A stretch of DNA of 64,000 bases from Eisenbergiella porci (GTDB taxonomy: Bacteria; Bacillota; Clostridia; Lachnospirales; Lachnospiraceae), in NCBI RefSeq assembly GCF_009696275.1, contig NZ_VUMI01000006.1, forward strand, positions 62,001 through 126,000, given 5' to 3'. Position 1 is the stretch's first letter. Each line of letters opens with the position of its first letter. Positions 2,462 to 30,683 of this stretch are shown here, piece by piece. The position numbers and the translations under genes are program-made. A model generated the notes under the pieces. That model had not been told where the DNA came from and searched no databases. It worked only from the letters and a program-made list of their open reading frames with translations.

Positions 2462-2592
2462 AACTACCTTTAAGCAGGTCTGCGCACCTGTTGCGCTGAC
2501 TGTAAGAAAGTGATTCAGGAGTGCCGAAATCCATCGCCAAAGGTGATACAGGCCGGATTTTGGCTGTAACTGTGAAGGTACTGAACAGTTAC
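2462..2592. repeat. MITE-like intergenic element, copy B
   Basis: This 131-bp segment matches, in opposite orientation, the element at 25779-25927. Shared blocks include AGCAGGTC, GCGCTGAC, a 19-base GTAAGAAAGTGATTCAGGA stretch, AAATCCATCGCCAAAGG and the right end CTGAACAGTTAC. The left terminal repeat is degenerate. It ends 30 bases before the Spo0A-like gene, so it lies in that gene's leader or promoter region. No coding frame is visible in it. Confidence 0.75.
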
Positions 2593-2621
2593 CGTCACGC
2601 ACGGACATCAGGAGGAGAAGA

Positions 2622-3008
2622 ATGGTTACGGAAAATTTAACGCAGGCACAGATAGAACGCTACGTATCGGAATTCATGCTGGAGCTGGGAGTGCCGGCTC
2701 ATCTGAGGGGATATTATTATCTGCGGGAGGCCATTGTTCTCACTGCTTTGGATATGGAACTGGTAGGAAGCGTAACCAAGCTTCTCTACCCCGGTATTGC
2801 AAAAAACAACCATACCAATATCCAGCGGGTGGAAAGGGCGATCCGTAATGCCATAGAGGTTTCCTGGGAGAGAGGAAACCCGGCCGTATTCGAGGATTTA
2901 TTCGGCTACAGCGCCGCTTCCGGGGCGGTAAGGCCGACAAACAGCGAATACATAGCCCGGATAGCGGACCGTATACGTATGGACGGGCCGCTGGAGCCGG
3001 AAGCTTAA
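2622..3008 (+). CDS. Stand-alone Spo0A C-terminal (DNA-binding) domain protein
   Basis: This 128-residue protein aligns by eye with the sigma-A-activating, 0A-box-binding domain of Spo0A. It has an LGVPAHLRGYYYLREAI segment, VTKLLYPGIAK, a recognition-helix region NIQRVERAIRNAIE, then FGY and PTNSEYIA near the C-terminus. The N-terminal phosphoacceptor receiver of normal Spo0A (about 260 residues in total) is absent, and a good RBS (AGGAGG, 2610-2615) shows that the short form is the real gene. It is probably a phosphorylation-independent DNA-binding regulator. No clear 0A box (TGTCGAA) was found in the intergenic DNA of the window, so its targets are unknown. Confidence 0.85.
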   Translation: MVTENLTQAQIERYVSEFMLELGVPAHLRGYYYLREAIVLTALDMELVGSVTKLLYPGIAKNNHTNIQRVERAIRNAIEVSWERGNPAVFEDLFGYSAASGAVRPTNSEYIARIADRIRMDGPLEPEA

Positions 3009-3072
3009 TAAGGCTGCCTGCCTTACTGCTGTGCAGAAGGACAAGCGGCCGGTTACGTCAGGAGGAATACCC

Positions 3073-4002
3073 ATGAGTTTACTGAGCGTCATTGTCCCAT
3101 GCTACAATGAAGAGGAAAACGTAGATTGTTTCTATGAGGAATTGATGAAAAATACCCCTTTTTTTGAAAAAGAAGGGCTGGAACTGGAAATCCTGTATGT
3201 GGATGACGGTTCCAAAGACAGGACTGTGGAGGAAGTTAAGGACTTAAGGAAGAGGGATGAGAGGGTGCATCTGATTTCCTTTTCCCGGAATTTCGGGAAG
3301 GAATCCGCTATTTATGCGGGGCTGCAGAAAGCGAAGGGCGATTATGTGGTTATGATGGATGCGGATCTGCAGGATCCGCCGTCCCTGCTTCCGGATATGT
3401 TTTCATATATAAAAGAAGGTTATGATTCCGTGGCAACCAGAAGGGTGACGAGAAAGGGAGAACCGCCAATCCGTTCCTTTTTTGCACGGATGTTTTACCG
3501 CCTTGTGAACCGGATTTCCAAAACGGAAATTGTGGATGGGGCCAGGGATTACCGACTGATGACCAGGCAGGTGGTTGACTCCATTCTTCAGATGACAGAG
3601 TATAACCGGTTTACCAAAGGGATTTTCGGCTGGGTGGGATATTCCACCAAATGGCTGGAGTTCGAAAATGTGGAGCGCGCCCATGGAGAAACAAAGTGGA
3701 ATTTCTGGAAGCTGTTCATTTATGCGCTTGACGGCATCACTGCTTTTTCCACGGTTCCGCTGGCATTGGCCTCCTTTATGGGGGTTCTGTTCTGTTTTGT
3801 GGCATTTCTGCTGATTCTTGTTATTGTGATTAAGACGCTGGCGATAGGAGATCCGGTGGGCGGCTGGCCTTCCATGGTATGTATTATCTGCATGGTCAGC
3901 GGCGTGCAGCTTTTCTGTCTGGGGATTGTGGGGCAGTACCTGTCCAAAACCTATATGGAAGTGAAGAAGCGGCCTATTTATCTGGTGAAGGAAGAGCTGT
4001 AA
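3073..4002 (+). CDS. GtrB/Dpm1-type family 2 glycosyltransferase
   Basis: This 309-residue enzyme has an N-terminal GT-A domain and two C-terminal membrane helices. VDDGSKDRT and MMDADLQDPP carry the nucleotide- and metal-binding aspartates. The layout is that of GtrB, ArnC and dolichol-phosphate mannose synthase enzymes, which load a sugar onto polyprenyl phosphate at the cytosolic face. Such lipid donors feed GT-C enzymes outside the membrane, several of which are in this window. Upstream in-frame codons exist from 3031, but GGAGG at 3061 points to the ATG at 3073. The sugar cannot be deduced. Confidence 0.88.
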   Translation: MSLLSVIVPCYNEEENVDCFYEELMKNTPFFEKEGLELEILYVDDGSKDRTVEEVKDLRKRDERVHLISFSRNFGKESAIYAGLQKAKGDYVVMMDADLQDPPSLLPDMFSYIKEGYDSVATRRVTRKGEPPIRSFFARMFYRLVNRISKTEIVDGARDYRLMTRQVVDSILQMTEYNRFTKGIFGWVGYSTKWLEFENVERAHGETKWNFWKLFIYALDGITAFSTVPLALASFMGVLFCFVAFLLILVIVIKTLAIGDPVGGWPSMVCIICMVSGVQLFCLGIVGQYLSKTYMEVKKRPIYLVKEEL

Positions 4003-4888: not shown

Positions 4889-6280
4889 ATGAATCAGAAG
4901 GAATCCAGAAAAAGACTGCTGATTTTGCTACTGTCATATATTGGTTTGCTGGCTATGCTGGGAGGATATGTCATAGCCTATTTCGGTTATTATTATCCGG
5001 TGATTATCAGGCATGATACGAAGCTTTATTTTAAGGGACATCTTCTGATTTTTGCTTTTTACCTGGTGGTTCTGTTCCTGTTTATGAAGACCTACGGCGG
5101 GCTGAGGATTGGATATCAGAAGCCCATGGAGGTTTTTGGTTCCCAGGTATTCGCACTTCTTTGCACCAATGTTTTTTCTTATCTGCAGATGGCGATGATC
5201 CACGGCTGGCTGATTCCTCCGGTTCCGCTGCTGCTGACGCTTATTGGGCAGATTGTGTTCGGCGCATTTTATACCTGGCTGTCCTACCGTATCTACAGGA
5301 AGCTTTTCCCGCCAAGGCAGCTGCTGCTGATTTACGGCGATCGTCCCACGGAGGATATCCAGCGTAAATTCGCCAGCCGCAAGGACAAGTATAATATTGT
5401 AAAATGTATGAACATTTCAGCCGGAGCCGACGCGATTCTTGACGAGGTGGAAAAGGGCTACGGCGGCGTGGTTCTGTGGGACATCCCCACGGCGGTGAGG
5501 AATAAGCTGATCAAGTACTGCTACAGCCGCTCCGTCCGTATTTATATGATGCCTAAAATTCCGGATGTTATCATCAAGGGATCCGAACAGCTGCATCTTT
5601 TTGACACGCCGATTTTTCTGACCCGGGAATTTGCGCTCACCGTGGAGCAGCAGATTTTCAAGCGCTGCATCGATGTTGTGTGCGCGCTGATTTTGCTGGT
5701 GCTCGCTTCGCCCTTCATGCTGATTACGGCCATTGTAATCAAGCTTTATGACGGCGGTCCGGTCCTGTATAAGCAGATACGTTGCACCAGGGATGCAAAG
5801 GAATTCAAAATCCTGAAATTCCGCAGCATGAGAGTGGATGCGGAGAAGGACGGCGTGGCTAGGCTTGCCGCCAAAAATGATTCCCGTATCACACCGGTGG
5901 GGAAATTCATCCGTGCGGTCCGGATTGACGAGCTTCCGCAGCTTATCAATATACTGAAAGGGGAAATGTCCTTTATCGGTCCCCGTCCGGAACGGCCGGA
6001 AATCATCGCCCAGTATATGGAGGAAATGCCGGAATTTGCGTTCCGCATGAAGGTGAAGGCAGGCCTGGCCGGTTACGCGCAGGTTTATGGAAAATACAAT
6101 ACGACTCCCTATGACAAGCTGAAGCTGGATCTGACCTATATCGAAAATTATACTGTATGGCTGGATATCAGGCTGATGCTGCTTACGCTGAAGATCCTTT
6201 TCAAGGCGGAAAGCACCGAGGGTGTGGAATCCACACAGATCACGGCGATAAAGTCGGAATCCGATGAGGACAATAAATAA
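4889..6280 (+). CDS. Undecaprenyl-phosphate sugar phosphotransferase (WbaP/CpsE type), initiating enzyme
   Basis: This 463-residue polyprenyl phosphoglycosyltransferase would transfer a sugar-1-phosphate from a nucleotide sugar to undecaprenyl phosphate, starting a repeat unit. It has four N-terminal membrane helices (about residues 10-135), a Rossmann-like linker domain, then the conserved bacterial sugar transferase domain from about residue 255. That domain shows ILKFRSMRVDAEKDG, RIDELPQL and FIGPRPERPE. It is the large multi-helix type, unlike the small PglC-like enzyme at 49481-50119. It is followed directly by a Wzz-like chain-length protein, a classic arrangement. RBS GGAG lies 8 bases before the ATG. 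Confidence 0.92.
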   Translation: MNQKESRKRLLILLLSYIGLLAMLGGYVIAYFGYYYPVIIRHDTKLYFKGHLLIFAFYLVVLFLFMKTYGGLRIGYQKPMEVFGSQVFALLCTNVFSYLQMAMIHGWLIPPVPLLLTLIGQIVFGAFYTWLSYRIYRKLFPPRQLLLIYGDRPTEDIQRKFASRKDKYNIVKCMNISAGADAILDEVEKGYGGVVLWDIPTAVRNKLIKYCYSRSVRIYMMPKIPDVIIKGSEQLHLFDTPIFLTREFALTVEQQIFKRCIDVVCALILLVLASPFMLITAIVIKLYDGGPVLYKQIRCTRDAKEFKILKFRSMRVDAEKDGVARLAAKNDSRITPVGKFIRAVRIDELPQLINILKGEMSFIGPRPERPEIIAQYMEEMPEFAFRMKVKAGLAGYAQVYGKYNTTPYDKLKLDLTYIENYTVWLDIRLMLLTLKILFKAESTEGVESTQITAIKSESDEDNK

Positions 6281-7521
6281 TGAGAGAAGAAAAATTCTGG
6301 CAGGAGGGCATGGACGGAAAGCGTTTTGCCCTCTGTCTTTTCAAAAAAGGATGGATTATCCTGGCGGCAGCGCTGGCGGGAGCCGCCGCGGCTGCGGGGA
6401 TTTATCTCTTTGCGGCGCTGGTGCTTGGCGGAAAGCCGGAGTATCAGGTGTTTTCCCAGTACCGGATCTATTTTGACAAGGAGAAATACGGGGAAATCGA
6501 AGACTATTACAATGCTTATACCTGGGGGGAAATCATGAAGACCGACCAGGTGGTGGATTTTGTCATGGAGGCGCTGCCGGAGGGAATCAGCAAGGCCCAG
6601 GTAAAGGCGTCCGTTTCCGTGGGGCAGATGAACGATGTGAAAATTATGCCCTTGTACATCACCACGCAGGATGCCGGGCTTTCTCAGGAAATTGCTAAGG
6701 CCTATGTGTATGGCCTGGATAAGTTTGCCAAATCCATCGAGGGGCTTAGCGGGATGCAGTGCTGGACGGTGGAGCCTGTAACGCAGGTACCCCGTGCAAC
6801 AAAAACCTTGAATGCCTTTATGTTCGGCAGTATTCTGGGTGCGGTGCTTTCTTTTCTGGTTCTCGTATTTTTTTATATTCTGGATGATTCCATTTATCTG
6901 GAGGAGGACTTTGCGAAGCGTTTCCGTATTCCGGTGCTGGGGATCCTGACCCGGGGGAAGGATGCGGATTATCTGGAGGAACTGAAAGGGAACGCGGCAT
7001 TCCTGTTAAAAGGAAGCAAACGGATCTGCCTGGTGGACGGGAGCTGCCTGAAACAGACGGGGCGGATGGAGAAATCAGGGCAGACGGAAAAGACAGGTCA
7101 GACGGAGAAATCAGGGCGGACAGGAAAAACGGGTCAGACGGAGATAACAGGTCAGATGGAAAAAACGGGTCACGAAACCGGACAGGGAGCGGCTGCCGGG
7201 GCCTCTGCCGTCCCGTCGTCCTGCCGGGAGGCCGGTGAACTGCTGTCAGCCGCGGCGGGGGAAAATGCGGAGACCTTTGTTACTGCCTGGCCCTTCGGGG
7301 AAAAGGAAGTGCGCATGCTGCACAGTGCGGACAGCGTGGTGCTTGCGGTTCCCTGTGGATTCGGAAACGGCAGGGCGCTTTTTCATCTGGCGGCGCAGCT
7401 GGAAAAGCTGGGAATCACAGCCGCGGGCGCTGTGCTCACGGATGCGGATGATAAATTCCTCAGGGCCTATTACGGGAAGAAAAAACGTAAAGCGTCCGGA
7501 AAGAGAAAACAATGGACATGA
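6280..7521 (+). CDS. Wzz/CapA-like chain-length protein fused to a degenerate BY-kinase region
   Basis: This 413-residue membrane protein has a first helix at about residues 25-50, an extracytoplasmic domain to about 175, a second helix at about 182-205, and a cytoplasmic part beginning FRIPVLGIL. That order matches CapA/YveK activators joined to a CapB/CpsD tyrosine kinase. The cytoplasmic part keeps KRICLVDGS and a late ADSVVLAVPCGFGNGRA...GAVLTDADD stretch resembling the BY-kinase core, but no Walker A (GxxxxGKS/T) is present. Where it should be there is an in-frame 18-bp tandem repeat coding for GQTEKT-like units. The C-terminus has YY and a basic tail. It is probably a regulator of polymer length without kinase activity. 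Confidence 0.8.
   Translation: MREEKFWQEGMDGKRFALCLFKKGWIILAAALAGAAAAAGIYLFAALVLGGKPEYQVFSQYRIYFDKEKYGEIEDYYNAYTWGEIMKTDQVVDFVMEALPEGISKAQVKASVSVGQMNDVKIMPLYITTQDAGLSQEIAKAYVYGLDKFAKSIEGLSGMQCWTVEPVTQVPRATKTLNAFMFGSILGAVLSFLVLVFFYILDDSIYLEEDFAKRFRIPVLGILTRGKDADYLEELKGNAAFLLKGSKRICLVDGSCLKQTGRMEKSGQTEKTGQTEKSGRTGKTGQTEITGQMEKTGHETGQGAAAGASAVPSSCREAGELLSAAAGENAETFVTAWPFGEKEVRMLHSADSVVLAVPCGFGNGRALFHLAAQLEKLGITAAGAVLTDADDKFLRAYYGKKKRKASGKRKQWT
7060..7167 (+). repeat. Six tandem 18-bp in-frame repeats
   Basis: Six consecutive 18-bp units close to GGTCAGACGGAGAAAACG encode GRMEKS, GQTEKT, GQTEKS, GRTGKT, GQTEIT and GQMEKT. A decayed seventh follows. Units are whole codons, so copy-number changes would lengthen or shorten the linker without a frameshift. 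Confidence 0.85.
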
Positions 7522-12857: not shown

Positions 12858-13855
12858 AGAATGAGAATCCGCTTATCACTGTCATCATCCCGATTTATAA
12901 TATCATGGACTGTCTGGAGCGTTGTGTGAGCTCGGTGTGCGCCCAGACCTACCGGAACCTGGAAATCCTGCTGGTGGACGATGGATCCACCGACGGCACG
13001 GGGGCGCTGTGTGACCGGCTGGCGGAACGGGACGGGCGGATCCGGGTGTTCCATAAGGAAAACGGCGGCTCCTCCTCCGCCCGGAATTTAGGGCTGCAAA
13101 AGGCGCGTGGGGAATATCTGGGATTTGTGGACAGCGACGATTTTATTGAGCCGGATATGTATGAAAGGCTGATGGAACAGGTAAAGGCGGGCGGTTACAG
13201 CATCGTCCAGGCTTCCAGGGATGAGATTGATGAAAACGGGCAAAAGAGGGCGGATGTATGTACGCCGCCCGAAGAGGTAACGTTTTTGTCCGGGGAAGCC
13301 TTTCTGCGGGAGCTGCTGCTGCACAGGGGGGACTGTTCCTTCTGTACCAAGCTGACGGTACGAAGCCTTTTCGGGGAGAAACGGTTCCCGGAGGGGGAGC
13401 TGAACGAGGATTTTTACCTGCTGGTGGAGCTTTTGCAGGAGACGGAGGGCGTCTGTATCCTTCCTCAGCAGCTTTATCATGTATATTACCGCATGGGCAG
13501 CAATACCAGGCGGAAGGAGCGGAATGATTTTTCCAGGGTTTTTGTGGATATTGTGAAGAATGCAGACTTTGTCCAGGGGATAGTGGAGGAAAAATATCCG
13601 GCGCTGCAAAAGGAAGCGGTGCGCTTCGGCCTGTATCAGCGGCTGGATTATCTGCTGCATATCCCGGTGGGACTTATGGTGCGGGAGGATAGCTTTTATA
13701 CGGCGGTAAAAAAATACTGCCGCAGGCATGCCGCCGATACGGTGGTTTCCCCCTATCTGACGGCAAAGCAGAAGGTGTATCTGCTGCTTCTGTCCGCCGC
13801 GCCGAAAACGGTGCGGCGGCTCCATGGCCTGACAATGCGGGCGCGGGGCGTGTAG
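12854..13855 (+). CDS. Family 2 glycosyltransferase
   Basis: A 333-residue GT-A enzyme with VIIPIYNIMDCLERCV, DDGSTDGT and VDSDDFIEPDMYERLM, the standard pattern of capsule and teichoic-acid side-chain GT2 enzymes such as EpsJ and WaaV-like proteins. A purine-rich RBS (GAAGGAGAT) lies before the ATG, which overlaps the previous stop. This is the last gene of the first packed segment; an AlbA-type remnant and a non-coding stretch follow. Confidence 0.87.
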   Translation: MKNENPLITVIIPIYNIMDCLERCVSSVCAQTYRNLEILLVDDGSTDGTGALCDRLAERDGRIRVFHKENGGSSSARNLGLQKARGEYLGFVDSDDFIEPDMYERLMEQVKAGGYSIVQASRDEIDENGQKRADVCTPPEEVTFLSGEAFLRELLLHRGDCSFCTKLTVRSLFGEKRFPEGELNEDFYLLVELLQETEGVCILPQQLYHVYYRMGSNTRRKERNDFSRVFVDIVKNADFVQGIVEEKYPALQKEAVRFGLYQRLDYLLHIPVGLMVREDSFYTAVKKYCRRHAADTVVSPYLTAKQKVYLLLLSAAPKTVRRLHGLTMRARGV

Positions 13856-13884
13856 AAGGGGGTATTATAAAAAAGGAGGGGCGG

Positions 13885-18567: not shown

Positions 18568-18584
18568 AGAGAGGAAAACTGAGA

Positions 18585-19613: not shown

Positions 19614-19676
19614 AGAACCGAGAAATTACGAAACATATAAAACATGCAATACGGGAAACCGGCGGAGGAGAAGCAG

Positions 19677-20933: not shown

Positions 20934-20951
20934 CCCACCCGGGAAAACATA

Positions 20952-21140
20952 AGGGGGTGTCACGGATGCTTATGAAGTTTTGGAGCAGTTTCTTAAAGTA
21001 TCCCAGGAAAGCTTTCCCCCTAAGATACGGCAGCTGTCTGAGGAGCCTGCGACGAGTTCCTGCCGTATCAGGGACGCCAAAGCTATCCTGGGATACTTTT
21101 AGAAACCGCCCAAAACTGAGTAGCATCCGTGACACCCCCT
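20952..21140. repeat. 189-bp imperfect palindrome, possible MITE
   Basis: The two arms are near-perfect inverted copies. Each starts AGGGGGTGTCACGGATGCT and continues through AGTTTTGG, a GTTTCT block, AAAGTATCCCAGGA and a TAGCTTT/AAGCTTT block to a GATACGGCAG centre. The first 19 bases of each arm are identical. Such a structure could be a non-autonomous transposable element or a very stable hairpin. It lies 240 bases before a transposase-like gene and next to the boundary of the minus-strand pse operon. Confidence 0.8.
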
Positions 21141-21257
21141 CACAGCCGCCCCCCCGCCCTCCAAAGCCCTCTCCCCAACGCCCCCACCGGATACCAGGAC
21201 AGCAGGCCCCCTTCGGGACCGCCCCCGCCGGAAGGATGTGGATTTATTTACTTTATC

Positions 21258-21286
21258 TTGCTATGTTCCATACTTTCTTTTATAAT
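21258..21286 (+). promoter_or_regulatory. Sigma-A-type promoter for the Rpn-family gene
   Basis: TTGCTA (21258-21263) and a perfect TATAAT (21281-21286) are spaced by 17 bases, about 95 bases before the ATG of the Rpn-family gene. The region is A+T-rich, unlike the C-rich tract just upstream. Confidence 0.65.
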
Positions 21287-21380
21287 ATTCTTATAGAAAT
21301 CCCTTTTGATATTTATTATGATTTGGTTTGCAGAAGCGATTTTTTCTTGAAAAATACAATATTCAAGGAGAGCAATTGCC

Positions 21381-22322
21381 ATGCAGACAAAAGAAGCAGC
21401 ACTGACCCCAAAACCCCAGAAACAGTATAAGGACCGCCTGTTCCGATTGTTATTTTCGGAGCGCAGTGACCTGCTGGAGCTGTATAACGCATTATGCCAA
21501 AAATGCTATACTGATCCGGACGCCCTGGAGATCACCACCTTCGATGATGTGATTTATATGGGGATGAAGAACGATATTTCCTTCCTTCTGGACGGAAGAA
21601 TGGGGTTATTTGAACATCAGAGTACCTTAAATCCCAATATGCCGCTGCGGGGACTGTTTTACTTTTCCGATTTGTATAAACGTTTTTTCCATGACAGAAT
21701 GATTTATTCCACAAGGCTGCTGCGGATTCCCACGCCGGTATATGTTATTTTTTACAATGGGGAGAGCAGGATGCCGGATACATCGGTTTTGAAGCTGTCG
21801 GATGCATTTATGCAGGGAGAGGATATGGCCTGTCTGGAAGTGCGTGTCCGTATGCTGAATATCAATGCGGGGCACAATACGGAATTGATGGGACGGTGCA
21901 GGAGGCTGGAGGAATACGCTGTTTTCATTGAACGCGTCAGGGAGAAACTGAGGGCTATGGAGCCTGCCGCGGCGATCCGGGCGGCAATGGAACAGTGTAT
22001 TGAGGAAGGGATCCTTGCCGAATTTTTAAGCCGGAGGAGGGCTGAGGTTATGAATGCACTTTTAACGGAATATGACGAAGAAAAGGTTATGAAGAGCCTG
22101 AGCGGGGAATTTTACGAGGATGGATATGAAGCCGGTAAGGAAGACGGCAGAAAAGCCGGTTTGACGGAGGGTATCCGTATTTTTGTGGTGGATAATCTGG
22201 AGGAGGGAGTCGGCAAGGACAGGATTATCAGTAAGATAGAAAAAAGGTTCTCTCTGTCAAAGAAGCAGGCGGAAGAGTATTTCGCAGAGTTCTCGGAGAA
22301 CTTTGTGAAAAATTACCTTTGA
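21381..22322 (+). CDS. Rpn-family recombination-promoting nuclease / PD-(D/E)XK transposase
   Basis: A 313-residue protein of the Rpn/PDDEXK_2 family, which in E. coli promotes RecA-independent recombination. It shows the clostridial signature: KDRLFRLLFSERSDLLELYNAL, LEITTFDDVIYMGMKNDISFLLDGRMGLFEHQST (nuclease Asp and Glu with EHQ in place of ExK) and NPNMPLRGLFYFSDLYKRF. The C-terminal third has the usual tail GYEAGKEDGRKAGLTEG. RBS AAGGAGAG precedes the ATG. Its own promoter and terminator make it an independent unit rather than part of the glycan operon. Confidence 0.88.
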   Translation: MQTKEAALTPKPQKQYKDRLFRLLFSERSDLLELYNALCQKCYTDPDALEITTFDDVIYMGMKNDISFLLDGRMGLFEHQSTLNPNMPLRGLFYFSDLYKRFFHDRMIYSTRLLRIPTPVYVIFYNGESRMPDTSVLKLSDAFMQGEDMACLEVRVRMLNINAGHNTELMGRCRRLEEYAVFIERVREKLRAMEPAAAIRAAMEQCIEEGILAEFLSRRRAEVMNALLTEYDEEKVMKSLSGEFYEDGYEAGKEDGRKAGLTEGIRIFVVDNLEEGVGKDRIISKIEKRFSLSKKQAEEYFAEFSENFVKNYL

Positions 22323-22355
22323 ATGGAACGGGAAGAATAAATATAAAATAATTAC

Positions 22356-22404
22356 AGCGTGTGGCAGGACTGCGTAAATCCAGTTGAAGGCCGCACGCTT
22401 TTTT
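22356..22404 (+). terminator. Intrinsic terminator after the Rpn-family gene
   Basis: AGCGTGTGGC (22356-22365) pairs with GCCGCACGCT (22390-22399) with one mismatch and is followed by six T residues. Confidence 0.75.
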
Positions 22405-22493
22405 GTGTCCGGAAACGGACCGAAATCCCCGGAAGTGTGGAGGATTAGGCAGTTTTCTGCCACAGATTTTTCTTGCGGTATAATAACTGCCAA

Positions 22494-22536
22494 AAATCAG
22501 ACAGGGCCTCCGTTTTCTGCGTAAGACCCTGTTGGC
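22494..22536 (-). terminator. Probable terminator of the minus-strand pse operon
   Basis: Read on the minus strand, ACAGGG and CCCTGT form a 6-bp stem with a 20-base loop, followed within three bases by TTTTT. It is about 60 bases past the pseI stop. The stem is short, so the call is moderate. A separate small hairpin (CGCCC-GCA-GGGCG) lies at 22543-22555. Confidence 0.4.
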
Positions 22537-22593
22537 ATAATGCGCCCGCAGGGCGTTTTAGGGAAATTTGGATTATAAAATTTCGTTTCGGCT

Positions 22594-23649
22594 TTAATCC
22601 GTAATCAGGTTCCAGGCAAGGGGAGTACCCCTGCTGATATCGCGCGCTGCGTGCTGCCCGAGAATCTGTTCATAATACATGGTATGCAGGCCGTTTCCGG
22701 GACGGATGGAACGGACATTTTCCGGAGTCAGGGCCTCGCCTTTTGCAATATTCTTAACGGCAAAAAGAGAACGGGAGCCTTCATGCTCAATTTCCTGTTT
22801 TTCCGTTAAATGGAAATCAGAGCTGCCCAGGGCTTTTTCCATGATGCGGATATTTTTCACCATTTCGGCAAATTCTTCCGGTTCCATGGAGAATGCGCCG
22901 TCGGGGCCGCCGTCGCTGCGGCGCAGCGTCAGATGCTTTTCCACCATTTTTATGCCGAGAGCAATGGAGCCGGATGCCACCGCGGTTCCCATGCTGTGAT
23001 CAGACAGGCCCATAACGCAGTCAAACATATTGCCCAGCGTTGGAATCATGTTCAGGTTAATATCTTCATAGGGCGTGGGATAGGAAGAAACACATTTCAT
23101 CAGAACCACATTTTCGTTTCCTTCTTCCCTGCAGACGCGGAGCGCGCGTTCAATATCCTCCAGATGAGCGATGCCCGTGGCAAAAATCACAGGCTTATGC
23201 AGGCGGGCGATTTTGCGTATCAGGGGAATGTCGTTGATTTCGTAGGAAGCCAGCTTATAGGCGGGCATATTCATGGATTCCATAAAATCAACAGCCGTAA
23301 AATCAAAGGGAGAGGAGAAGCATTCCATTCCCAGGCGGTTCGCCTCTTCCATCAGCTTCGGCTGCCAATCCCAGGGAGTGTAAGCCTCTTCGTAAAGTTT
23401 ATAAAGGGTGGTGCCGTCCCAGATAGTTCCCTGTGTTATCTGAAAACAGGATGACTCGCTGTCCAGGGTGATGGTTTCAGGCCTGTAGGTTTGAAGCTTC
23501 ACGGCATCGGCGCCGGCCTCTTTGGCGGCATGGATGATTTCCACCGCCCGGCCGTAATCCTGCAGGTGATTGGCGGACATCTCCGCCACGATAAAAACGG
23601 GAGCGTTATTTCCCACGGAGTGGGAACCTATGGTAAACTCTTTATTCAT
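22594..23649 (-). CDS. pseI: Pseudaminic acid synthase
   Basis: This 351-residue NeuB-family enzyme would condense 2,4-diacetamido-2,4,6-trideoxy-L-altrose with phosphoenolpyruvate to give pseudaminic acid. PVFIVAEMSANHLQDYGRA and AGADAVKLQTYRPETITLD are family signatures of the barrel domain, and the C-terminal antifreeze-like SAF domain begins around SLFAVKNIAKGEAL. Upstream codons are open to 23745, but MNKEFTIG at 23649 with AAAGGGA before it is the true start. It overlaps the end of the decarboxylase gene by 8 bases. PseI is preferred over NeuB/LegI because PseB, PseC, PseG and PseF are present. Confidence 0.9.
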   Translation of the reverse strand: MNKEFTIGSHSVGNNAPVFIVAEMSANHLQDYGRAVEIIHAAKEAGADAVKLQTYRPETITLDSESSCFQITQGTIWDGTTLYKLYEEAYTPWDWQPKLMEEANRLGMECFSSPFDFTAVDFMESMNMPAYKLASYEINDIPLIRKIARLHKPVIFATGIAHLEDIERALRVCREEGNENVVLMKCVSSYPTPYEDINLNMIPTLGNMFDCVMGLSDHSMGTAVASGSIALGIKMVEKHLTLRRSDGGPDGAFSMEPEEFAEMVKNIRIMEKALGSSDFHLTEKQEIEHEGSRSLFAVKNIAKGEALTPENVRSIRPGNGLHTMYYEQILGQHAARDISRGTPLAWNLITD

Positions 23650-24868
23650 GGAAATCCCTTTCTTCGGTATAATTTTTCTGCATAAATTCATCCACGTCCC
23701 ACTGGTCACGGGCTTTAAAAAGCGTGCCGTCACGGTGTTCCACATAAACGGGAGGGAAATAATTGATGAAGAGCGGATTCAAACACATGGTATAGCCGCC
23801 GGCGGTGTCGTATACCACCTTATCCCCGGGCTTCATGGCCGGACCGTTCTTGATTTCAAAAAGACGGTCATACTCCATACAGGTAAAGCCGGTGACCCAT
23901 TGGCTTTTTATTACGGGCCTTTTTTCAGGCTCATCCACATAAACCATATGGTGGGGATAAACATGTCTGGTGACAAGCGGGTTCAGGTTTGTACGGCTGC
24001 CGTCAGTGATGAGGAAGGAATGGTTACGGATTTCCTTCACATCTTTTACGGAGGTGACGAATGTCGTAGCCCTGGAGATCAGGGATACGCCGGGTTCAGC
24101 GATCAGCGTGGTACATGCGGGATCGAATTTTCTGCGCAGCTCCTTACAGATGGCGTAAAAATAATCCCGGTAATCCGGCTTGTCCTCCCGCCCCCCGAAA
24201 TAACCGCCTCCCATATCCACATAGGAAAGCTCCAGATTATATTCCTCCGCTATCCTTACGGCCATACTGGCCAGCGCGGCATAGACGGAAACGGTGCGGG
24301 ACTGGGTGGAGGAATGCAGGTGCAGACCGGCGACTTTGACATTGGGGAGCCTGTTTATGCGGGAAATAACTTCCTCCAGCCTTCCGTTTTCATAACAGTA
24401 GCCAAAGCGGCCGCCTTCTTCCTCCACCAGTACCTCCTCCGGACAAAGGGCGGCGATATCACAGTTTACACGTACGCCAACAGAAAAATTACGCTGAGGG
24501 TAAGCTGCGCTTAATTCCTCCAGCCATATGGGTTCTTCAGTGGAATCTATGTTGATATATCCGCCGTCAAGAAGAATGGAGTTAAAAATTTCTTTTTCTT
24601 TAATCGGCCCGTTATAAATCATATGGGCATTGTCAAAGCCAAGCTTTTTGACCAGGCGGTATTCCGTGTCGGACACGATTTCTGCAAAAAAGCCCTGTCC
24701 CTTCATATATTGAAGCAGCCAGGGGAGGGAATTGGTTTTTACGGAATAGCCCACGAGATGGTTCGGCCCCCAGTTTTTGGAGAGGGCTTCCTTCAGGATG
24801 GCTGCATCCGTATCCAGGCCGGTTTCCCGGATGTAAAAATAGGGGGTCTGCAGTGTATCAGAATTCAT
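23642..24868 (-). CDS. Fold-III PLP-dependent decarboxylase (DAPDC/ODC-like) in the pse operon
   Basis: A 408-residue protein of the alanine-racemase-fold decarboxylases. GYSVKTN carries the PLP lysine; HLHSSTQSR, DMGGGYFGG (phosphate loop) and LIAEPGVSLIS follow, then TGFTCMEYDRLFE with a Cys in the catalytic position and DTAGGYTM near the end. It starts downstream of pseF and its stop overlaps pseI, so it is co-expressed with them. No step of the known pseudaminic acid pathway uses such an enzyme. It may decarboxylate an amino acid or a carboxylated precursor for a side group; this is inference. True lysA is a less likely alternative in this position. Confidence 0.82.
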   Translation of the reverse strand: MNSDTLQTPYFYIRETGLDTDAAILKEALSKNWGPNHLVGYSVKTNSLPWLLQYMKGQGFFAEIVSDTEYRLVKKLGFDNAHMIYNGPIKEKEIFNSILLDGGYINIDSTEEPIWLEELSAAYPQRNFSVGVRVNCDIAALCPEEVLVEEEGGRFGYCYENGRLEEVISRINRLPNVKVAGLHLHSSTQSRTVSVYAALASMAVRIAEEYNLELSYVDMGGGYFGGREDKPDYRDYFYAICKELRRKFDPACTTLIAEPGVSLISRATTFVTSVKDVKEIRNHSFLITDGSRTNLNPLVTRHVYPHHMVYVDEPEKRPVIKSQWVTGFTCMEYDRLFEIKNGPAMKPGDKVVYDTAGGYTMCLNPLFINYFPPVYVEHRDGTLFKARDQWDVDEFMQKNYTEERDFHE

Positions 24869-24929
24869 TGGTTTTCCTTTCTTTCTGTCGCAGAGGTCAG
24901 CGGTGTCGATCCGTGTATCACTGATGGAT

Positions 24930-25643
24930 TTACTTCAGGTTCTGCATTTTGCGGTATTTTAATTCGGCAATGGCCCAGTCTTCTTCGGTATCGATATCCT
25001 GTACTTCCATTTCCGGCATGATCATGGGGACGAGGTCGTCCACGTCCGTTGTGCTGTCACGGAAGAAGGCATCCGTACGGCAGGCGTAGAACTGTCCGCA
25101 GTCATGATACAATTTTTCCAGATCCTGAGAGCGGGCGGTGAGAAATTCCGGGTATTTGCGGCGGATTCGGCCATTCTCCAGAATAATGCCCCGCTGTGGC
25201 GGATAGGAAAACGCAACTACCGGCATGACGGATTCGGCCTGGTCAAGAAGTGCCATGGCATTTTTCAGTTTCTCCGCCGTCACAAAGGGGGCGGTGGGAT
25301 AGATGCAGCAGAACCGGTCAAAGCGGGTGCCGCCGGCTTCATAGGTCCTCAGGACTTCGGCGATTACATCATCCGTGGAGGCATAATCATTTGCGGACTC
25401 TGCAGAACGCATGAAGGGGACTGCGGCCCCAAAGCTCCTGGAAATGGAAGCAATTGCCTCATCATCCGTGGAAACCATGACCTCATCAAAGACGCCTGAC
25501 GAAAGCGCGGCTTCGATAGAATAGCTGATAATCGGTTTTCCGCAGAAGTCACGGATATTTTTATGGGGAATCCGCTTGCTGCCGCCTCTGGCGGTGATGA
25601 TGGCAACGGATTTTTTTTGAGGTTGTATGGTGGCTTGATTCAT
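24930..25643 (-). CDS. pseF: Pseudaminic acid cytidylyltransferase
   Basis: A 237-residue cytosolic enzyme that activates pseudaminic acid with CTP to give CMP-Pse. The signature AIITARGGSKRIPHKNIRDFCGKPI at the N-terminus is the CTP loop, followed by VMVSTDDEAIA and RFCCIYPTAPFV. This set separates PseF/NeuA enzymes from KdsB. RBS AAAAGGAG lies before the start. The product would be the donor for the GT52-like enzyme at 30750-31823. Confidence 0.92.
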   Translation of the reverse strand: MNQATIQPQKKSVAIITARGGSKRIPHKNIRDFCGKPIISYSIEAALSSGVFDEVMVSTDDEAIASISRSFGAAVPFMRSAESANDYASTDDVIAEVLRTYEAGGTRFDRFCCIYPTAPFVTAEKLKNAMALLDQAESVMPVVAFSYPPQRGIILENGRIRRKYPEFLTARSQDLEKLYHDCGQFYACRTDAFFRDSTTDVDDLVPMIMPEMEVQDIDTEEDWAIAELKYRKMQNLK

Positions 25644-25943
25644 GATGTTTATTTTACTCCTTTTTGAAGTATTTTAATCGATGAGGGTGTTTAAGCCTTG
25701 ACCGATATAAGTCTGCAGGCAAACTAATGTGCACTGTACATTCGCACTAATATAACCAATATAAATCGAAAATGAATCGTAACTGTTCAGTACCCCTCAC
25801 AGTTACTGCTAAAATCCATCCTAAATCGCCTTTGGCGATGGATTTTAGCACTCCTGAATCACTTTCTTACGGTCAGCGCAAAGCGCTGGCCTGCGCAGCT
25901 AAATGCGCTGACCTGCTGAACAGTTACAATGAATCTACATATA
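25644..25943. other. 300-base gap between pseG and pseF filled mainly by repeat element A
   Basis: The gap lies inside a minus-strand pathway cluster. It contains the complete MITE-like element at 25779-25927 and about 130 A+T-rich bases before pseF, where a promoter is possible but no convincing -35/-10 pair was found. Confidence 0.5.
25779..25927. repeat. MITE-like intergenic element, copy A (complete)
   Basis: This 149-bp element has perfect 12-bp terminal inverted repeats, GTAACTGTTCAG and CTGAACAGTTAC. Inside are a perfect 14-bp hairpin (TGCTAAAATCCATC / GATGGATTTTAGCA) with TCGCC-TTT-GGCGA at its tip, and a second stem GTCAGCGCA / TGCGCTGAC. The linker between the two stems is nearly identical to that of copy B at 2462-2592. 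It has no coding capacity. Confidence 0.85.
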
Positions 25944-27008
25944 TTATACATGCGAAGCCTCAGAACACAATAGCTTTTCCAACCCTTCCGCAATTCTTAC
26001 GCTTCCATTTCCGTCAACCATTTTATGCATGGAATGTGCCAGGAAATATCTGTTATCATAACTGCTGCTCAGAGAAATAATGGCTTCCGCCAGCTTTTCT
26101 ATAAAATCAGTCGCAGTCCTCACATCGCCAACATAAGGGATTCCGGCAAAACGTTCCATATCCCTGGCTCCGGTCAGCTGATTATCCGCCATAGTAAAGC
26201 TGACGGCCGGGACTCCTGCGGCACACAGTTCATATAATGTGGTTCCGGCCGCGGAAACGGCAAGATCACACCGGCATATCAATGCCGCCATATCTGAAAC
26301 CTTTTCATAGAGCCTGATAGCTGGATTCCCATCTGCCAAAAGGTTCAGGGCGGCGCGGCCGGAATGCATGGGACCGGCCAATATATGATAGCATATTTCC
26401 TGTTCCCCGGGGAGGCAAAGAAGCCTGTTTATGAGACGTTCCGCCACGCCACAGGGGTCGGTGCCCCCGGTAGAAATAAGAATGTCCTTCGCTTGCGGCC
26501 TTACTTCCGGATGAAGGCCGCGGAACTGTTTCCTGAGGGGAGTATAAGACAGCCCCAACAGTTTGTAAGGGCAGTTTCTGTAAAAATCCGCCGGAGGGGC
26601 GGCATCATAGTTTATAATCAGATCCACCGGATAATCAAAGGAATAGATATCGTCAATATAAGCAGTTTTCGCCGCCTTATGAAGCCCCTCCAGATATGGC
26701 GGGGTAACAAAATAGGAATCTATCAGCACACAGCCGATATTATTTTCAAATACGGCAGTGAAAAGCCTGTCCAGTTCAGCGGCAGGATTGCGGTAGTCCG
26801 TATCCAGACATATCACGGGAAAATTTTCTCCCCCAGCCATAAAAGAACGGAGCAGCTGTCCGCTGTTGTGATCAGCGACCGCAAAAAGAACAGGAAGATT
26901 CCGTTCCTTCAATGCTTGCGCAACAGACAGGCAGCGCATCAGATGCCCCGTTGCAATTTCCTGATTACCGTCTGCCCGGATAAGAATTCCCTTTTTCCCA
27001 GTCTCCAT
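25944..27008 (-). CDS. pseG: UDP-2,4-diacetamido-2,4,6-trideoxy-beta-L-altropyranose hydrolase
   Basis: This 354-residue GT-B-fold hydrolase removes UDP from the diacetylated altrose intermediate before PseI. GILIRADGNQEIATGHLMRCLSVAQAL contains the catalytic His of the GHxxR motif, and DILISTGGTDPCG plus VSAAGTTLYELCAAGVPAVSF form the UDP-binding region. Length is normal and no fused acetyltransferase domain is present, so PseH must be separate. It is the first gene of the minus-strand operon, with a good promoter 55 bases upstream. Confidence 0.91.
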   Translation of the reverse strand: METGKKGILIRADGNQEIATGHLMRCLSVAQALKERNLPVLFAVADHNSGQLLRSFMAGGENFPVICLDTDYRNPAAELDRLFTAVFENNIGCVLIDSYFVTPPYLEGLHKAAKTAYIDDIYSFDYPVDLIINYDAAPPADFYRNCPYKLLGLSYTPLRKQFRGLHPEVRPQAKDILISTGGTDPCGVAERLINRLLCLPGEQEICYHILAGPMHSGRAALNLLADGNPAIRLYEKVSDMAALICRCDLAVSAAGTTLYELCAAGVPAVSFTMADNQLTGARDMERFAGIPYVGDVRTATDFIEKLAEAIISLSSSYDNRYFLAHSMHKMVDGNGSVRIAEGLEKLLCSEASHV

Positions 27009-27062
27009 TTAACAGTCTCCCAAAAACGGATATTAAATTATCCTCTTTTATTTTCTTTTATT

Positions 27063-27091
27063 ATTATACCTGCTGGAATAAATCCGGTAAA
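27063..27091 (-). promoter_or_regulatory. Sigma-A-type promoter for the minus-strand pse operon
   Basis: On the minus strand, TTTACC (27091-27086) and a perfect TATAAT (27068-27063) are spaced by 17 bases, about 55 bases upstream of the pseG start. It diverges from the promoter at 27158-27186, with a palindrome between them. Confidence 0.65.
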
Positions 27092-27098
27092 GGAAAAA

Positions 27099-27129
27099 GT
27101 AACAGTTCGGCCGAAGACTGAACTGTTAC
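27099..27129. repeat. 31-bp GTAACAGTTC palindrome between divergent promoters
   Basis: GTAACAGTTCGGCCGAAG runs into ACTGAACTGTTAC, a near-perfect inverted repeat. It is almost identical to the last 31 bases of element C (30653-30683), differing at two positions by eye. It lies between the pseG promoter and the + strand promoter, where it could act as an operator or a two-way terminator. Confidence 0.75.
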
Positions 27130-27157
27130 AGGAAAAAAGAGAAGACTTGTTTTTTAT

Positions 27158-27186
27158 TTGCCTGCAATCCCGAAAAGTGCTATACT
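27158..27186 (+). promoter_or_regulatory. Sigma-A-type promoter for the 27.2-30.5 kb segment
   Basis: TTGCCT (27158-27163) and TATACT (27181-27186) are spaced by 17 bases, about 45 bases before the first candidate start codon of the DUF6311-like gene. Confidence 0.65.
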
Positions 27187-27229
27187 TGCATCAGTTAACG
27201 GCACATGATACTTTACCACGTTGAAGTGC

Positions 27230-28927
27230 ATGGAAAGCCGGAAACAGGGAGGTATAAAGGATACTGTGCAGGCCGGTTTAAATTATTGGAAAAAGAACAA
27301 TGTGTTGATACTTGGCACATTGGTTGGAATTGTTACGTTTATCTGTATATTTGGGGTTCATGTACTGAATGTCACCTACACGGACTGGCTCCTGGGTGGC
27401 GGGGATCTGACTCAAAATTATCTGGGCTGGTGCCTTTTCAGGAACAGTGACTGGTTTTTCCCTTTTGGGCTGATGGATAATGCATCTTATCCTAATGCGG
27501 TATCCGTTATCTTTACGGATTCCGTGCCTCTGTTTGCCGTATTTTTTAAAATATTCAAGGCGGTTCTGCCGGATAGATTCCAGTATTTTGGTATCTGGGT
27601 CATGCTTTGTATGGGCGCCCAAGGCGCTTTTGGGGCGCTTCTGATTTATCATTATGTAAAAAAGAAAGCGGAAGCAGTTGTGGGCAGCCTTCTTTTTGTA
27701 ATTACGCCTGCGATGCTGGGGCAGATGTCCCTGAACCTGGCGCTGGGCGCTCAGTGGCTGGTGTTGTGTTCTCTGTATCTGGGAATCCGCAGAATGGAAA
27801 TGAGCGAAAAAAGGTTTGAGCTTGCCTGGGGAATTGCCGGGTTTTTGACGGGAAGTATACAGATGTATTTTATTCCCATGTGCGGTTTTGTCCTTCTCAG
27901 CTTTCTGCTTTCCGATCTGCTGCGGAGAAAAAAAATCAGGCAGGATGTCCTTGCACTGCTGGCATACCTGGGAGCTGCGGTTGGAGTTGTAGCATTGCTG
28001 GGAGGTTTTTCACACAATCATATGCCGGATACGTCTCAGTTCGGACAGTCCAGCTTTAATCTGAATGGCCTGTGGAATCCGCAGGGGTGGTCTCAGTATC
28101 TGTCGGATCTTCCGGTTTACGGCGCAAATCCCTCAGAAGGGCTGGCCTTCCCTGGTACCGGAATTGTACTTACACTGATTGCGGCGGCCGCAGCCTGTCT
28201 GATACATACCATTTATAAGGTATTTATAAAAAAAGAAAAAAAGCTGACTCATCTTCGTTTTGACTGGGGCGAAAACGGTGTTGCATTTCTGATACTGGCA
28301 ATGATTTCTCTTTCTGTGGCTCTTTCCCCTCAGGCCGCCTGTGGAAGCAGTCTGATCTGGAACTATGAGCTTCCGGCCTGGCTATCCTCTCTGTGGCAGA
28401 GAATCAGCTGCTGCGGCAGGTTTATCTGGCCGGTGCTGTACCTGATAATTCTTGGCAGCGTTGTATGGATGGAGAAGGAAATGCCATGGGAAACCATGGC
28501 GGCAGTTCTTCTGGTGATTTTTGCCGTCCTGCAGATTGCCGACGGAAAATGGCAGCTGATGCAGCGGCAGGTGCAGTTTGGAACCGAGTTTGCTTACGAC
28601 AGCCGCCTGGAGGATGAAAAGTGGGATATGTGGGCCCGGGAGGGTGATAATAAGCATATGGTTTTTGTGGGCCTGGATGACGAGGATTTATTGAATGACC
28701 TGAGCGCATATGCGGCTGAAAATGGTATGACGATTAATTATTTTAATGCCGCCTGCCAGACGATAAGGACAAAGGCAGTGGAGGATTTGGTGGAGTCGCT
28801 GATTAATCCGCGGGAGGATACGATGTATATTTATAAGGCGGCTGATGAGGGGAACTGTATTGATACACGCATGGAGTATGATGCGGTGGATGGGGTAATT
28901 GTGGGGATGGTGAAGAAACAGGGTTAG
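27230..28927 (+). CDS. DUF6311-like polytopic membrane protein, probable GT-C glycosyltransferase
   Basis: About 565 residues with roughly eleven membrane helices and a soluble C-terminal domain of about 110 residues. The first outer loop reads TDWLLGGGDLTQNYLGW, then WFFPFGLMDNASYPNAVSVIFTDS and RFQYFGIWVM, the pattern I associate with DUF6311. An acidic residue in the first loop and the large helical body match the GT-C plan, but catalysis is not proven. The start is uncertain: the ATG at 27230 has no RBS, whereas a GTG at 27266 has GGGAGG and AAAGG before it. Confidence 0.75.
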   Translation: MESRKQGGIKDTVQAGLNYWKKNNVLILGTLVGIVTFICIFGVHVLNVTYTDWLLGGGDLTQNYLGWCLFRNSDWFFPFGLMDNASYPNAVSVIFTDSVPLFAVFFKIFKAVLPDRFQYFGIWVMLCMGAQGAFGALLIYHYVKKKAEAVVGSLLFVITPAMLGQMSLNLALGAQWLVLCSLYLGIRRMEMSEKRFELAWGIAGFLTGSIQMYFIPMCGFVLLSFLLSDLLRRKKIRQDVLALLAYLGAAVGVVALLGGFSHNHMPDTSQFGQSSFNLNGLWNPQGWSQYLSDLPVYGANPSEGLAFPGTGIVLTLIAAAAACLIHTIYKVFIKKEKKLTHLRFDWGENGVAFLILAMISLSVALSPQAACGSSLIWNYELPAWLSSLWQRISCCGRFIWPVLYLIILGSVVWMEKEMPWETMAAVLLVIFAVLQIADGKWQLMQRQVQFGTEFAYDSRLEDEKWDMWAREGDNKHMVFVGLDDEDLLNDLSAYAAENGMTINYFNAACQTIRTKAVEDLVESLINPREDTMYIYKAADEGNCIDTRMEYDAVDGVIVGMVKKQG

Positions 28928-28954
28928 TTTTGACGGGAAAGGATAAAAACAGCT

Positions 28955-30541
28955 ATGAATGAAAATAGAGATACCTTTAAAGAAATATTATTAAAAATCC
29001 CCTTCCATATCAGGTGCTGCCTGGTTTCCGGAATCCTGTGGGGAATTATAACTCATGCCTATATGCTGACCAATAAGCTGCCGAACTGGGATGACATCAA
29101 TAATGTGGGCGGGTATGCAGTCGGCTCGGAATTCGGCAGATGGTTTTTGAAATATGTCAATCCGCTGGATGGGATTTGGAGCGTACCCTGGCTGAGTGGG
29201 ATTTTCTCCATCGTCCTGATTTCCGCTGCCGCCTGCTTTGTCCTTTCCACGCTGCATCTTAGAAGTACAACCTCCGCGGTCCTGATTCCGCTGATGATGC
29301 TGTCCTTCCCCAGCATGTGCAGCCTGTTTACCTTCATGTTTACCGCGGACTGCTATGCCGTAGGCATATTGCTGGCCTGTGCGGGTGCGTGGCTGATTAG
29401 GAAATACCGCTTCGGTTTCCTGCCAGGGATAGTCTGCCTGGTTCTGAGCATGGGAATCTATCAGGCATATCTGTGCCTGGCGCTGGGCATTCTGGTAATG
29501 GGGCTTTTTCTGGATATGCTTGAGGAAAACAGCCGGACCGCCGATGTTTTCCGAAGGGGAGTGAAGGCCTTTGTCGTGGCCTGCATTTCCGTCGTTATCT
29601 ATACGATTGTTTCCAGAATCGTATATCCCCAGCTGGATGCCTATAACGGCCTGGATCAGATGGGGAAAATTGATTTAATCCGTCTTCCCAGGCTGATACT
29701 TCGTTCCTACAAATGGGTGGTGCAGTATTTTATTCTGAAGCCCTTTTCCTTTGTGACTGCGGCCGCCTGGGCGCTGAATGTGGCTTCCTGCCTTCTTACG
29801 GCTGGCCTGGTTATCGCCTTTTTTATAAGAAAAAAAATATATAAAGATTCAGGCAGCGCCATCCTGTACATTTTTCTTGCCATGATGGTGCCCCTGGCTA
29901 TGGGTTCTATCATTATTATGGCGCCGGATGCCAGCATAAGCATGCTGATGCTTTACCAATACCATATCCTGTATACCTTTCTTGCCGCCCTTCTGGAAAA
30001 AAGCCAGGATACCCAGTCCGGCCTGTTCCTGGCGGATGCGGGAAAGGTGAGGGCAGGCAGGATACTGGGCTATGTGGTTGCGGCAGTTCTTCTGCTGGTG
30101 GGCTACCAGAATTTTGTTGTGACAAACCAGGCCTATTTCCGGATGGGAATTGCCTATGAAAGATCCTATGCATATTACAACCGTATCATGGAAAGGATTG
30201 AAGCCACAGCAGGCTATCAGCCGGGCGACCCCTTTGCGCTGATAGGGGAATATGGCCTGAGCGAGACGCCTGATCTGCTGGGCAGCTATTCCATGGATGG
30301 TGACAGGTTTACGGATTTATCCGGCGTGGCGAAGGAAACCGGGCTCCTTACCAGCGGCGTACGTTATAATTTTATGAAGACCTATATTGGCGTGGAAATG
30401 CCGGAGGTAAGCGAGGAAGCTGTCGAGGCCATTAAGGAGACAAAGGAATATCAGGAAATGCCTGCTTATCCGGCGGACGGCTGCGTGAAACAGATAGAGG
30501 GTGTATGGGTTGTTAAAACCTGTGAGGAAACAAAAGGGTAA
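28955..30541 (+). CDS. GtrII-like glucosyltransferase family membrane protein
   Basis: A 528-residue protein with about eleven membrane helices. NWDDINNVGGYAVGSEFGRWFLKY in the first outer loop carries the Asp pair and GRW motif of the GtrII family (PF14264), which in phages and enteric bacteria adds glucosyl side groups to O-antigen from undecaprenyl-phosphate glucose. TADCYAVGILLACAGAW and SMGIYQAYLCLALG are further family features. Its lipid donor would need a GtrB-like enzyme such as those at 3073 or 40114. RBS AAAGGA precedes the ATG. Confidence 0.82.
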   Translation: MNENRDTFKEILLKIPFHIRCCLVSGILWGIITHAYMLTNKLPNWDDINNVGGYAVGSEFGRWFLKYVNPLDGIWSVPWLSGIFSIVLISAAACFVLSTLHLRSTTSAVLIPLMMLSFPSMCSLFTFMFTADCYAVGILLACAGAWLIRKYRFGFLPGIVCLVLSMGIYQAYLCLALGILVMGLFLDMLEENSRTADVFRRGVKAFVVACISVVIYTIVSRIVYPQLDAYNGLDQMGKIDLIRLPRLILRSYKWVVQYFILKPFSFVTAAAWALNVASCLLTAGLVIAFFIRKKIYKDSGSAILYIFLAMMVPLAMGSIIIMAPDASISMLMLYQYHILYTFLAALLEKSQDTQSGLFLADAGKVRAGRILGYVVAAVLLLVGYQNFVVTNQAYFRMGIAYERSYAYYNRIMERIEATAGYQPGDPFALIGEYGLSETPDLLGSYSMDGDRFTDLSGVAKETGLLTSGVRYNFMKTYIGVEMPEVSEEAVEAIKETKEYQEMPAYPADGCVKQIEGVWVVKTCEETKG

Positions 30542-30546
30542 ATTTG

Positions 30547-30683
30547 GTAACAGTTCAGGAAGGTTTGTGCATTCACTGCACAAACCGTGAGAAAACGTGG
30601 TGGCAGCAGGCATCCGCCCCTCGCCGAAGGCGAGTTATAATGGGCGGATGCGGTAATAGTTCGGCCGAAGGCTGAACTGTTAC
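30547..30683. repeat. MITE-like intergenic element, copy C
   Basis: This 137-bp element has perfect 12-bp ends, GTAACAGTTCAG and CTGAACTGTTAC. Inside are a 9-bp hairpin GGTTTGTGC / GCACAAACC and a second hairpin CATCCGCCC / GGGCGGATG with TCGCC-GAA-GGCGA at its tip. The layout of ends, two hairpins and linker equals copy A although the inner sequence differs. It starts just after the GtrII-like gene and ends 6 bases before a promoter -35 box. Confidence 0.8.

Follow-up and report, generated by a model that had tools for sequence, protein, structure and literature searches.

Miniature inverted-repeat elements with ISBst12-IS66-type ends and an unusual three-hairpin interior in Eisenbergiella porci and other Lachnospiraceae

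Among short dispersed repeats of bacteria, RUP has been ascribed to an insertion sequence (IS) through its like ends, and the effect of ERIC is described as orientation-dependent (PMC2229807). IS66 elements are described with GTAAGCG ends and 8-bp repeats (PMC11946415). ISDge4, of the ISBst12 group, transposed in Deinococcus and is given the ends GTGACTACTCAGCA / GTAACTGCTCAGCA with an 8-bp repeat (PMC12898284). Here we report on dispersed non-coding repeats found in a 64-kb window (64,000 nucleotides of contig C106, RefSeq NZ_VUMI01000006.1, positions 62,001 to 126,000) of the Eisenbergiella porci genome (6.10 Mb, 149 contigs). They belong to a large superfamily of miniature inverted-repeat transposable elements (MITEs) with ISBst12-IS66-type ends, ordinary in kind and unusual in the plan of its interior. 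Our results suggest that they are probably moved by transposases of this group and that the structured module between their ends is kept paired by compensatory change.

Read along the strand of hairpin P1, an element consists of a left end, P1, a purine-rich linker, hairpin P2 and hairpin P3, which holds the right end. Scores refer to a covariance model, R1, of 134 positions and 34 pairs. The window contains two full copies, A and C:

25779..25927, minus strand (that of P1): copy A, full element of 149 bp with 12-bp perfect inverted ends; R1 119.9 bits
25771..25778 (left) and 25928-25935 (right): 8-bp target-site duplication of copy A, AATGAATC, 8/8
25871..25913, minus strand: hairpin P1 of copy A, longer than in most copies; minus-strand fold, coordinates by hand
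25807..25850, minus strand: hairpin P2 of copy A; minus-strand fold, coordinates by hand
25779..25806, minus strand: terminal hairpin P3 of copy A, inner end copy and right end; from sequence and model alignment
30547..30683, plus strand: copy C, full element of 137 bp with 12-bp perfect inverted ends; R1 138.9 bits
30539..30546 (left) and 30684-30691 (right): 8-bp target-site duplication of copy C, TAAATTTG, 8/8
30562..30586, plus strand: hairpin P1 of copy C; fold and model alignment
30610..30651, plus strand: hairpin P2 of copy C; fold and model alignment
30653..30683, plus strand: terminal hairpin P3 of copy C; fold and model alignment

The repeats are real, and A and C each have the 12 perfectly inverted terminal bases that an earlier note on this stretch had described. 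Where that note counted two inner hairpins there are three, the third containing the right end. The perfect duplications at both copies had previously gone unreported. Similar duplications recur in the host genome, where 29 distinct elements could be delimited, 130-137 bp long apart from one composite of 173 bp and copy A: 19 have perfect duplications and seven have one mismatch. In other Lachnospiraceae, 42 elements were delimited from GTDB-genome loci among the core-pattern matches listed (72 more were set aside for want of both ends in reach); 29 of these have perfect duplications, five have one mismatch and one has a flank cut off. As a control, hairpins within full host elements were submitted to the same flank comparison, and all 35 rows gave three or more mismatches. 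Terminal inverted repeats and target-site duplications are therefore found together, as in MITEs.

Element-free sites in relatives, also characteristic of MITEs, were found for copy C and for a solo hairpin at 27099, within a part of the window (13001-33000) that is syntenic in the genus. At the copy C site, G001 and G012, which we infer to be the congeneric Eisenbergiella tayi DSM 26961 and Lachnospiraceae bacterium CE91-St56, have the right flank TAATTTGCTTTTTGA running on with no element; the solo hairpin is missing from the matching place in the same two genomes. The gene gap of copy C is short and element-free in G004, G006, G007, G009 and G010, longer and filled by other sequence in G008, and about 1.1 kb in G003 and G005. 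At the copy A site, flanks in relatives were too diverged for alignment. Other palindromic inserts occur slightly upstream in the copy C gap of G001 and G012 (L359, L360; window 30540-30750), and this gap, downstream of a stop codon, is perhaps an insertion hot spot.

In G257, four copies differ at 3-5 of 133 bases and have preserved their duplications (8/8 in three, 7/8 in one), which argues that they are recent. Some elements touch each other or are separated by 8-9 bp (L257:1371-1502(+)/1503-1637(-); L258:1501-1632(-)/1641-1772(+); L145:2797-4682/4692-4796), as if one had entered the duplicated target of another.

The possibility that likeness is limited to the few copies of the window is set aside by their number. 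By BLAST, copy A has 41 places in the host genome and copy C 39, and copy A is present in 8 of 61 relatives, the host included. The 12-bp end, with at most one mismatch, occurs 215 times in the host (106 + 109), against 16 (6 + 10) for the reversed control pattern. With R1, the host gave at least 114 matches at E<=0.001 from 150 scored candidates out of 2058, and G012 at least 98 (150 of 2311 scored). In view of these BLAST places, the excess of ends over the control and the model matches, the similarity is not due to chance. It extends to other Lachnospiraceae as well, 50 of 250 sampled family genomes including the host, or 49 of 249 genera, having at least one R1 match, in a scan where at most 13 matches were counted per genome. 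The elements are short, devoid of transposase, multi-copy and dispersed, as expected of MITEs.

No plasmid record matched the element of L186. Five unannotated human-gut phage records match it at 76-82% identity (MT837311.1, MT836459.1, MT839789.1, MT836432.1, MT839453.1); the element may travel on phages, or those records may contain host DNA. Among L147-L246, many contigs of one metagenome-assembled genome (CAMWHJ records) stop inside an element, as if many near-identical copies had broken the assembly. In the literature, with ISfinder outside the search, no description of these repeats was found, and among papers retrieved with the 12-mer end none concerns them, judging by title.

Ends in GTAA together with 8-bp duplications we take to be a pointer to IS66, whose elements share such ends and the same duplication length. 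The earlier note knew of no named family with these ends; in fact they belong to the ISBst12 group of IS66, as given for ISDge4 (PMC12898284). In G012, a candidate partner transposase with matching ends exists in the same genome as the MITEs: a whole IS66 element (L145:2797-4682) with a single open reading frame (ORF) of 507 aa and the ends GCAACAGTTCAGACGG / GTAACAGTTCAGACAG has TAATTGGA directly on its left and one base off on its right, and is adjoined by a 105-bp MITE (L145:4692-4796) that has similar ends and TAATTGGA repeats of its own. In G140, a 2358-bp element with a 558-aa ORF, ends GTTACTGTTCACACCC / GTTACTGTTCAGACGC and a perfect duplication (8/8, GCCGGAAT) has ends resembling a second MITE end type, which is present in L059, L264, L269, L270 and L279. 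An element of G330 combines ends GTTACAGTTCACACCC and the duplication GTATTAGA with an interrupted ORF, and one of G026 has one end identical at 12/12 (GTAACTGTTCAGAACCCCC), the other being GTATCTGTTCAGAACCCCC. A blind search for inverted ends with 8-bp repeats in 31 IS66 loci returned a pair in four (G140, G330, G012 and G027); the G012 pair joins the left end of the IS to the right end of the adjacent MITE, and the pair of G027 is that of a classic GTAAGCG IS66. PF03050 is present in all three IS66 ORFs scanned. The MITE claim of the earlier note is backed by duplications, by relatives' sites that lack the element and by IS66 elements sharing these ends, and we infer that ISBst12-group transposases would act in trans on the MITE ends, leaving 8-bp duplications.

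Several observations weigh against this assignment. The seven IS66 matches of the host are all cut or in pieces (that of contig C140 shows one end, GTAACTGTTTAG, its match starting at GTAACTGTTTAGGACCCC). PF03050 matches were obtained in only 4 of 13 element-bearing genomes, and among the 11 IS66 loci from those four a MITE-like end (at most one mismatch) was present in two (L373, L377), with no pair having a duplication. The IS66 elements found in G001, G015 and G025 showed no such ends, and no IS66 was found in G031, nor in G257 despite its recent copies; in 400 kb of G257, the four end pairs with a duplication within 4 kb include no long one. The G026 element has flanks that do not match, and despite its perfect IS66 end this genome has no R1 match. 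Of 299 family genomes, 19 have an IS66 closely related to that of the host, compared with 50 of 250 having the MITE, and R1 detected no module of P1 and P2 in the 33 IS66 loci searched. With IS66 partners so sparse in element-bearing genomes, the assignment to the ISBst12 group rests on likeness of ends, on duplication length and on a small number of good cases; the partner may have been lost, may be unassembled or may be another enzyme. That a non-IS66 transposase moves the element, its IS66-like ends being convergent or inherited, appears quite unlikely to us: it would fit the nine genomes lacking a PF03050 match, G257 among them, and the other ends of most IS66 found in element-bearing genomes, but IS66 elements carry each of the two MITE end types, and those of G012 and G140 have 8-bp repeats. 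Moreover, insertion sequences present in several copies can be missing from draft assemblies.

Between the ends lies a core of three hairpins whose sequence varies but whose shape does not, a plan unusually well conserved across genera and end types. P1, of about 25 nt, has a YTTRC loop; the linker, 70% purine, starts with GTRAGAAA in most elements; P2 has an outer stem of ~11 pairs and an inner hairpin with a one-sided loop between them; in P3, the right end pairs with an inner copy of the end. The left end is able to pair with the right end instead, and minimum-energy predictions show both folds; for eight strands of six elements they gave z values of -5.0 to -11.5. The same plan lies under both main end types, GTAACTGTTCAG and GTTACTGTTCAC. 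Some variants depart from it: a 211-bp form with extra sequence nested in the P2 loop (L222:4957-5167, L219:4344-4554, L236:968-1178), an 80-bp shortened copy without P2 (L155:7315-7394), and a shortened element of 61 bp with a perfect duplication, AGGGATTC, in G257 (contig C1 336391-336451, in L394).

Alignment A1 comprises 33 elements less than 95% alike, those outside 128-145 bp and one rearranged copy being excluded. When no structure was given, RNAalifold recovered P1, inner P2 and P3, with double changes in 15 of 25 pairs; outer P2 was missed, and the MAFFT alignment is out of register there between subfamilies. The compensatory stem changes that the earlier note had proposed to look for are clear in 51 R1-fitted matches (one cut off), an alignment that leans toward the structure and whose cells are not independent: 90.4% of 1684 cells are paired, 32 of 34 pairs show double changes, and covariation is 0.433, as compared with 0.126 after shuffling and at most 0.084 after sliding.

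Complementary arms may also be kept without selection, since template switching corrects inverted repeats (quasipalindrome correction). The interior could then be unselected palindromic filler whose likeness comes from spread between genera, an explanation to which we give appreciable, though minority, weight. Loose counts of GU and AC cells on two alignments are about equal (29:25 and 66:77), as if neither strand were favoured. On the other hand, GU exceeds AC in intact helices by 91 to 50 cells in 210 elements (cells not independent), and by 16:5 in a stringent count on 51 elements. The unpaired linker and P1 loop, beyond the reach of pairing-based correction, are alike across genera; this likeness is partly imposed by the search in the GTDB set, whose core pattern itself contains part of P1 and linker; the BLAST and model sets are free of this effect. 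That two end types share one interior plan also argues against mere filler. The earlier note's idea of selection on structure therefore stands as to the pattern, present across many genera, and is weakened by a copy-correction that would keep arms paired as well; its mention of an RNA-structure element finds modest evidence of strand-specific (RNA) constraint, varying with the way GU and AC are counted.

Orientation was scored as the P1 strand relative to genes in tandem pairs, genes being called by a simple ORF rule (minimum 100 aa or 90 aa). The sets (75 of the 114 host matches, 50 of the 98 from G012 and 73 of the 126 GTDB rows) were trimmed by hand for low scores, cut-off matches and some positions near contig ends; copies at an edge or more than 800 bases from a gene were left unscored (7 of 55 and 1 of 20 in the host, 11 of 73 in GTDB, 5 of 50 in G012, 3 of 24 in the family). 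Of 55 host copies examined, 30 agree with their genes and eight oppose them, with six in divergent and four in convergent gaps. The 73 GTDB loci gave 35 and 12 (11 divergent, 4 convergent), the 50 of G012 17 and 5 (16 divergent, 7 convergent). All sets together count 96 co-directional copies against 40 (p 1.7e-6; two loci are shared by the GTDB and G012 sets), and many sense copies start a few bases from a stop codon. The bias is weak in 20 further host copies, mostly lower-scoring (6 agree, 5 oppose; 6 divergent, 2 convergent), and absent from 24 diverse family loci (8 agree, 10 oppose; 2 divergent, 1 convergent), a set that differs from the rest by Fisher p 0.013; these results weigh against the reading that we prefer below. 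A replication-fork cause of the bias is unsupported, mixed contexts in G012 being leading in 11 cases and lagging in 12, if the record is taken to start at the origin.

The two strands of an element are not equivalent. Over 50 elements, unpaired pyrimidine-C (YC) dimers average 0.82 in sense and 5.56 in antisense, and in 37 of the 50 the sense strand has the more stable fold. Together with the 70% purine of the linker, this excess of antisense YC suggests, without proof, that antisense copies would expose predicted Rho-type sites. In our preferred reading, that of IS66-mobilised MITEs, the module (P1 with its YTTRC loop, linker, two-part P2 and P3, paired through compensatory change) would give a compact sense transcript with few exposed pyrimidine-C sites and hence the least harm to operons. 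From the orientation bias and the strand asymmetry, we hypothesize that copies harming operons least survive between co-directional genes, the module being retained in this way.

Two stronger readings build on the same observations. The interior might be a functional RNA (riboregulator, processing site or operon insulator) aboard a mobile element, in keeping with covariation, the co-directional bias, the greater sense stability with fewer unpaired YC dimers and the 91:50 excess of GU. We find this rather doubtful, given that the orientation bias is missing from the diverse family set and that Rfam has no match at gathering score in the 64-kb window and none convincing at elements in seven other element-bearing loci, where all seven rows at E<=5 lie below gathering score; one, Thr_leader (L223:3230-3299; 26.2 bits vs gathering 55), overlaps one element end. 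Unlikely, in our estimation, is the further proposal that the module is selected across Lachnospiraceae regardless of end variant and acts as an operon insulator, its sense transcript being compact with few exposed Rho-type pyrimidine-C sites so that the element can lodge in operons, with P3 as a further, unusually small transposable unit of about 26-31 bp.

P3-like hairpins of 26-46 bp do stand alone, at nine distinct places in the host and at four in G012; their flanks agree at 6 to 8 of 8 bases, with perfect agreement in two cases. Host loci for solos came partly from the end-pattern search, so that these counts are no census: 34 host rows were classed as solo, of which 11 have at most two mismatches (the nine distinct places) and many others are the P3 of full copies missed by the filter. 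Since P3 bears an end at either side, and left end and inner end are direct repeats, a solo P3 could result from its own transposition or from deletion between the left and inner end copies, the remnant being the same either way; under the IS66 reading, it would be a small insert produced by one of these routes. Solo hairpins starting with GTAA resemble GTAG-tagged repetitive extragenic palindromes (REPs; PMC3733652), and one could think of REP-type palindromes mobilised as single strands by a Y1 transposase of the REP-associated (RAYT) type. This we regard as highly improbable, because the elements have 8-bp duplications and inverted ends and because the GTAG tag of REPs is unpaired, whereas GTAAC is paired here. 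Y1 single-strand transposition is not known to make such duplications or inverted ends.

The other copies in the window are older, decayed or solo:

2463..2592, plus strand: copy B, older, left end degenerate, right end and body good; R1 84 bits
14432..14514, plus strand: decayed fragment; R1 26.4 bits, E 8.6e-5 for the window
27099..27129, no strand assigned: solo P3-type hairpin of 31 bp; duplication AGGAAAAA, 8/8
55781..55810, no strand assigned: solo P3-type hairpin of 30 bp; duplication 7/8
1271..1298, no strand assigned: probable old solo hairpin (L019); flanks 6/8 alike

Copy B, whose degenerate left end the earlier note had seen correctly, has no duplication left, 6 of 8 flanking bases being different. 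The decayed copy placed by that note near 14.4 kb does match R1, though as a weak fragment limited to the coordinates above. Apart from these elements, 18-base tandem units occupy 7052-7170 of the window, within an ORF at 6280-7521.

These elements make up a large repeat set of gut-type bacteria, with no description found in the literature searched, tied to one little-studied transposase group. Their many copies, many hosts and two end types offer a natural data set on why a non-coding transposon keeps a structure. The insulator idea, if true, would account for the way such elements can enter operons without blocking them, and solo hairpins with 8-bp duplications raise the question of the lower size limit of such transposons.

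Among the closest described systems is the ISBst12 group, on the account of ISDge4: it shares ends (GTRACTRCTCAGCA) and an 8-bp direct repeat, and ISBst12 has a single transposase ORF (PMC12898284), whereas the MITE has no transposase and its three-hairpin interior was not found by R1 in the 33 IS66 loci. Correia/NEMIS, RUP and ERIC are likewise described as shorter than 200 bp, with inverted ends, duplications and structured transcripts (PMC2229807). By these descriptions they are set apart, since they end in 5'-TA-3' and the present elements have GTAAC/GTTAC ends and 8-bp duplications; in 49 of the 249 genera sampled, the latter combine one architecture with varying stems and two types of end. 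Among bcr1-bcr18 of Bacillus cereus, bcr1-3 are described as MITE-like and located in untranslated regions and operon gaps, and bcr10 and bcr18 as conserved structures (PMC3446304); compared by description, these belong to another host group, and MITE-like and structured families are named apart, while here one family is both. GTAG REPs, finally, are also short dispersed hairpins with a GTA tag at one end (PMC3733652), but their tag is described as unpaired and they are attributed to RAYT transposases, in contrast to the paired ends and 8-bp duplications of the elements described here.

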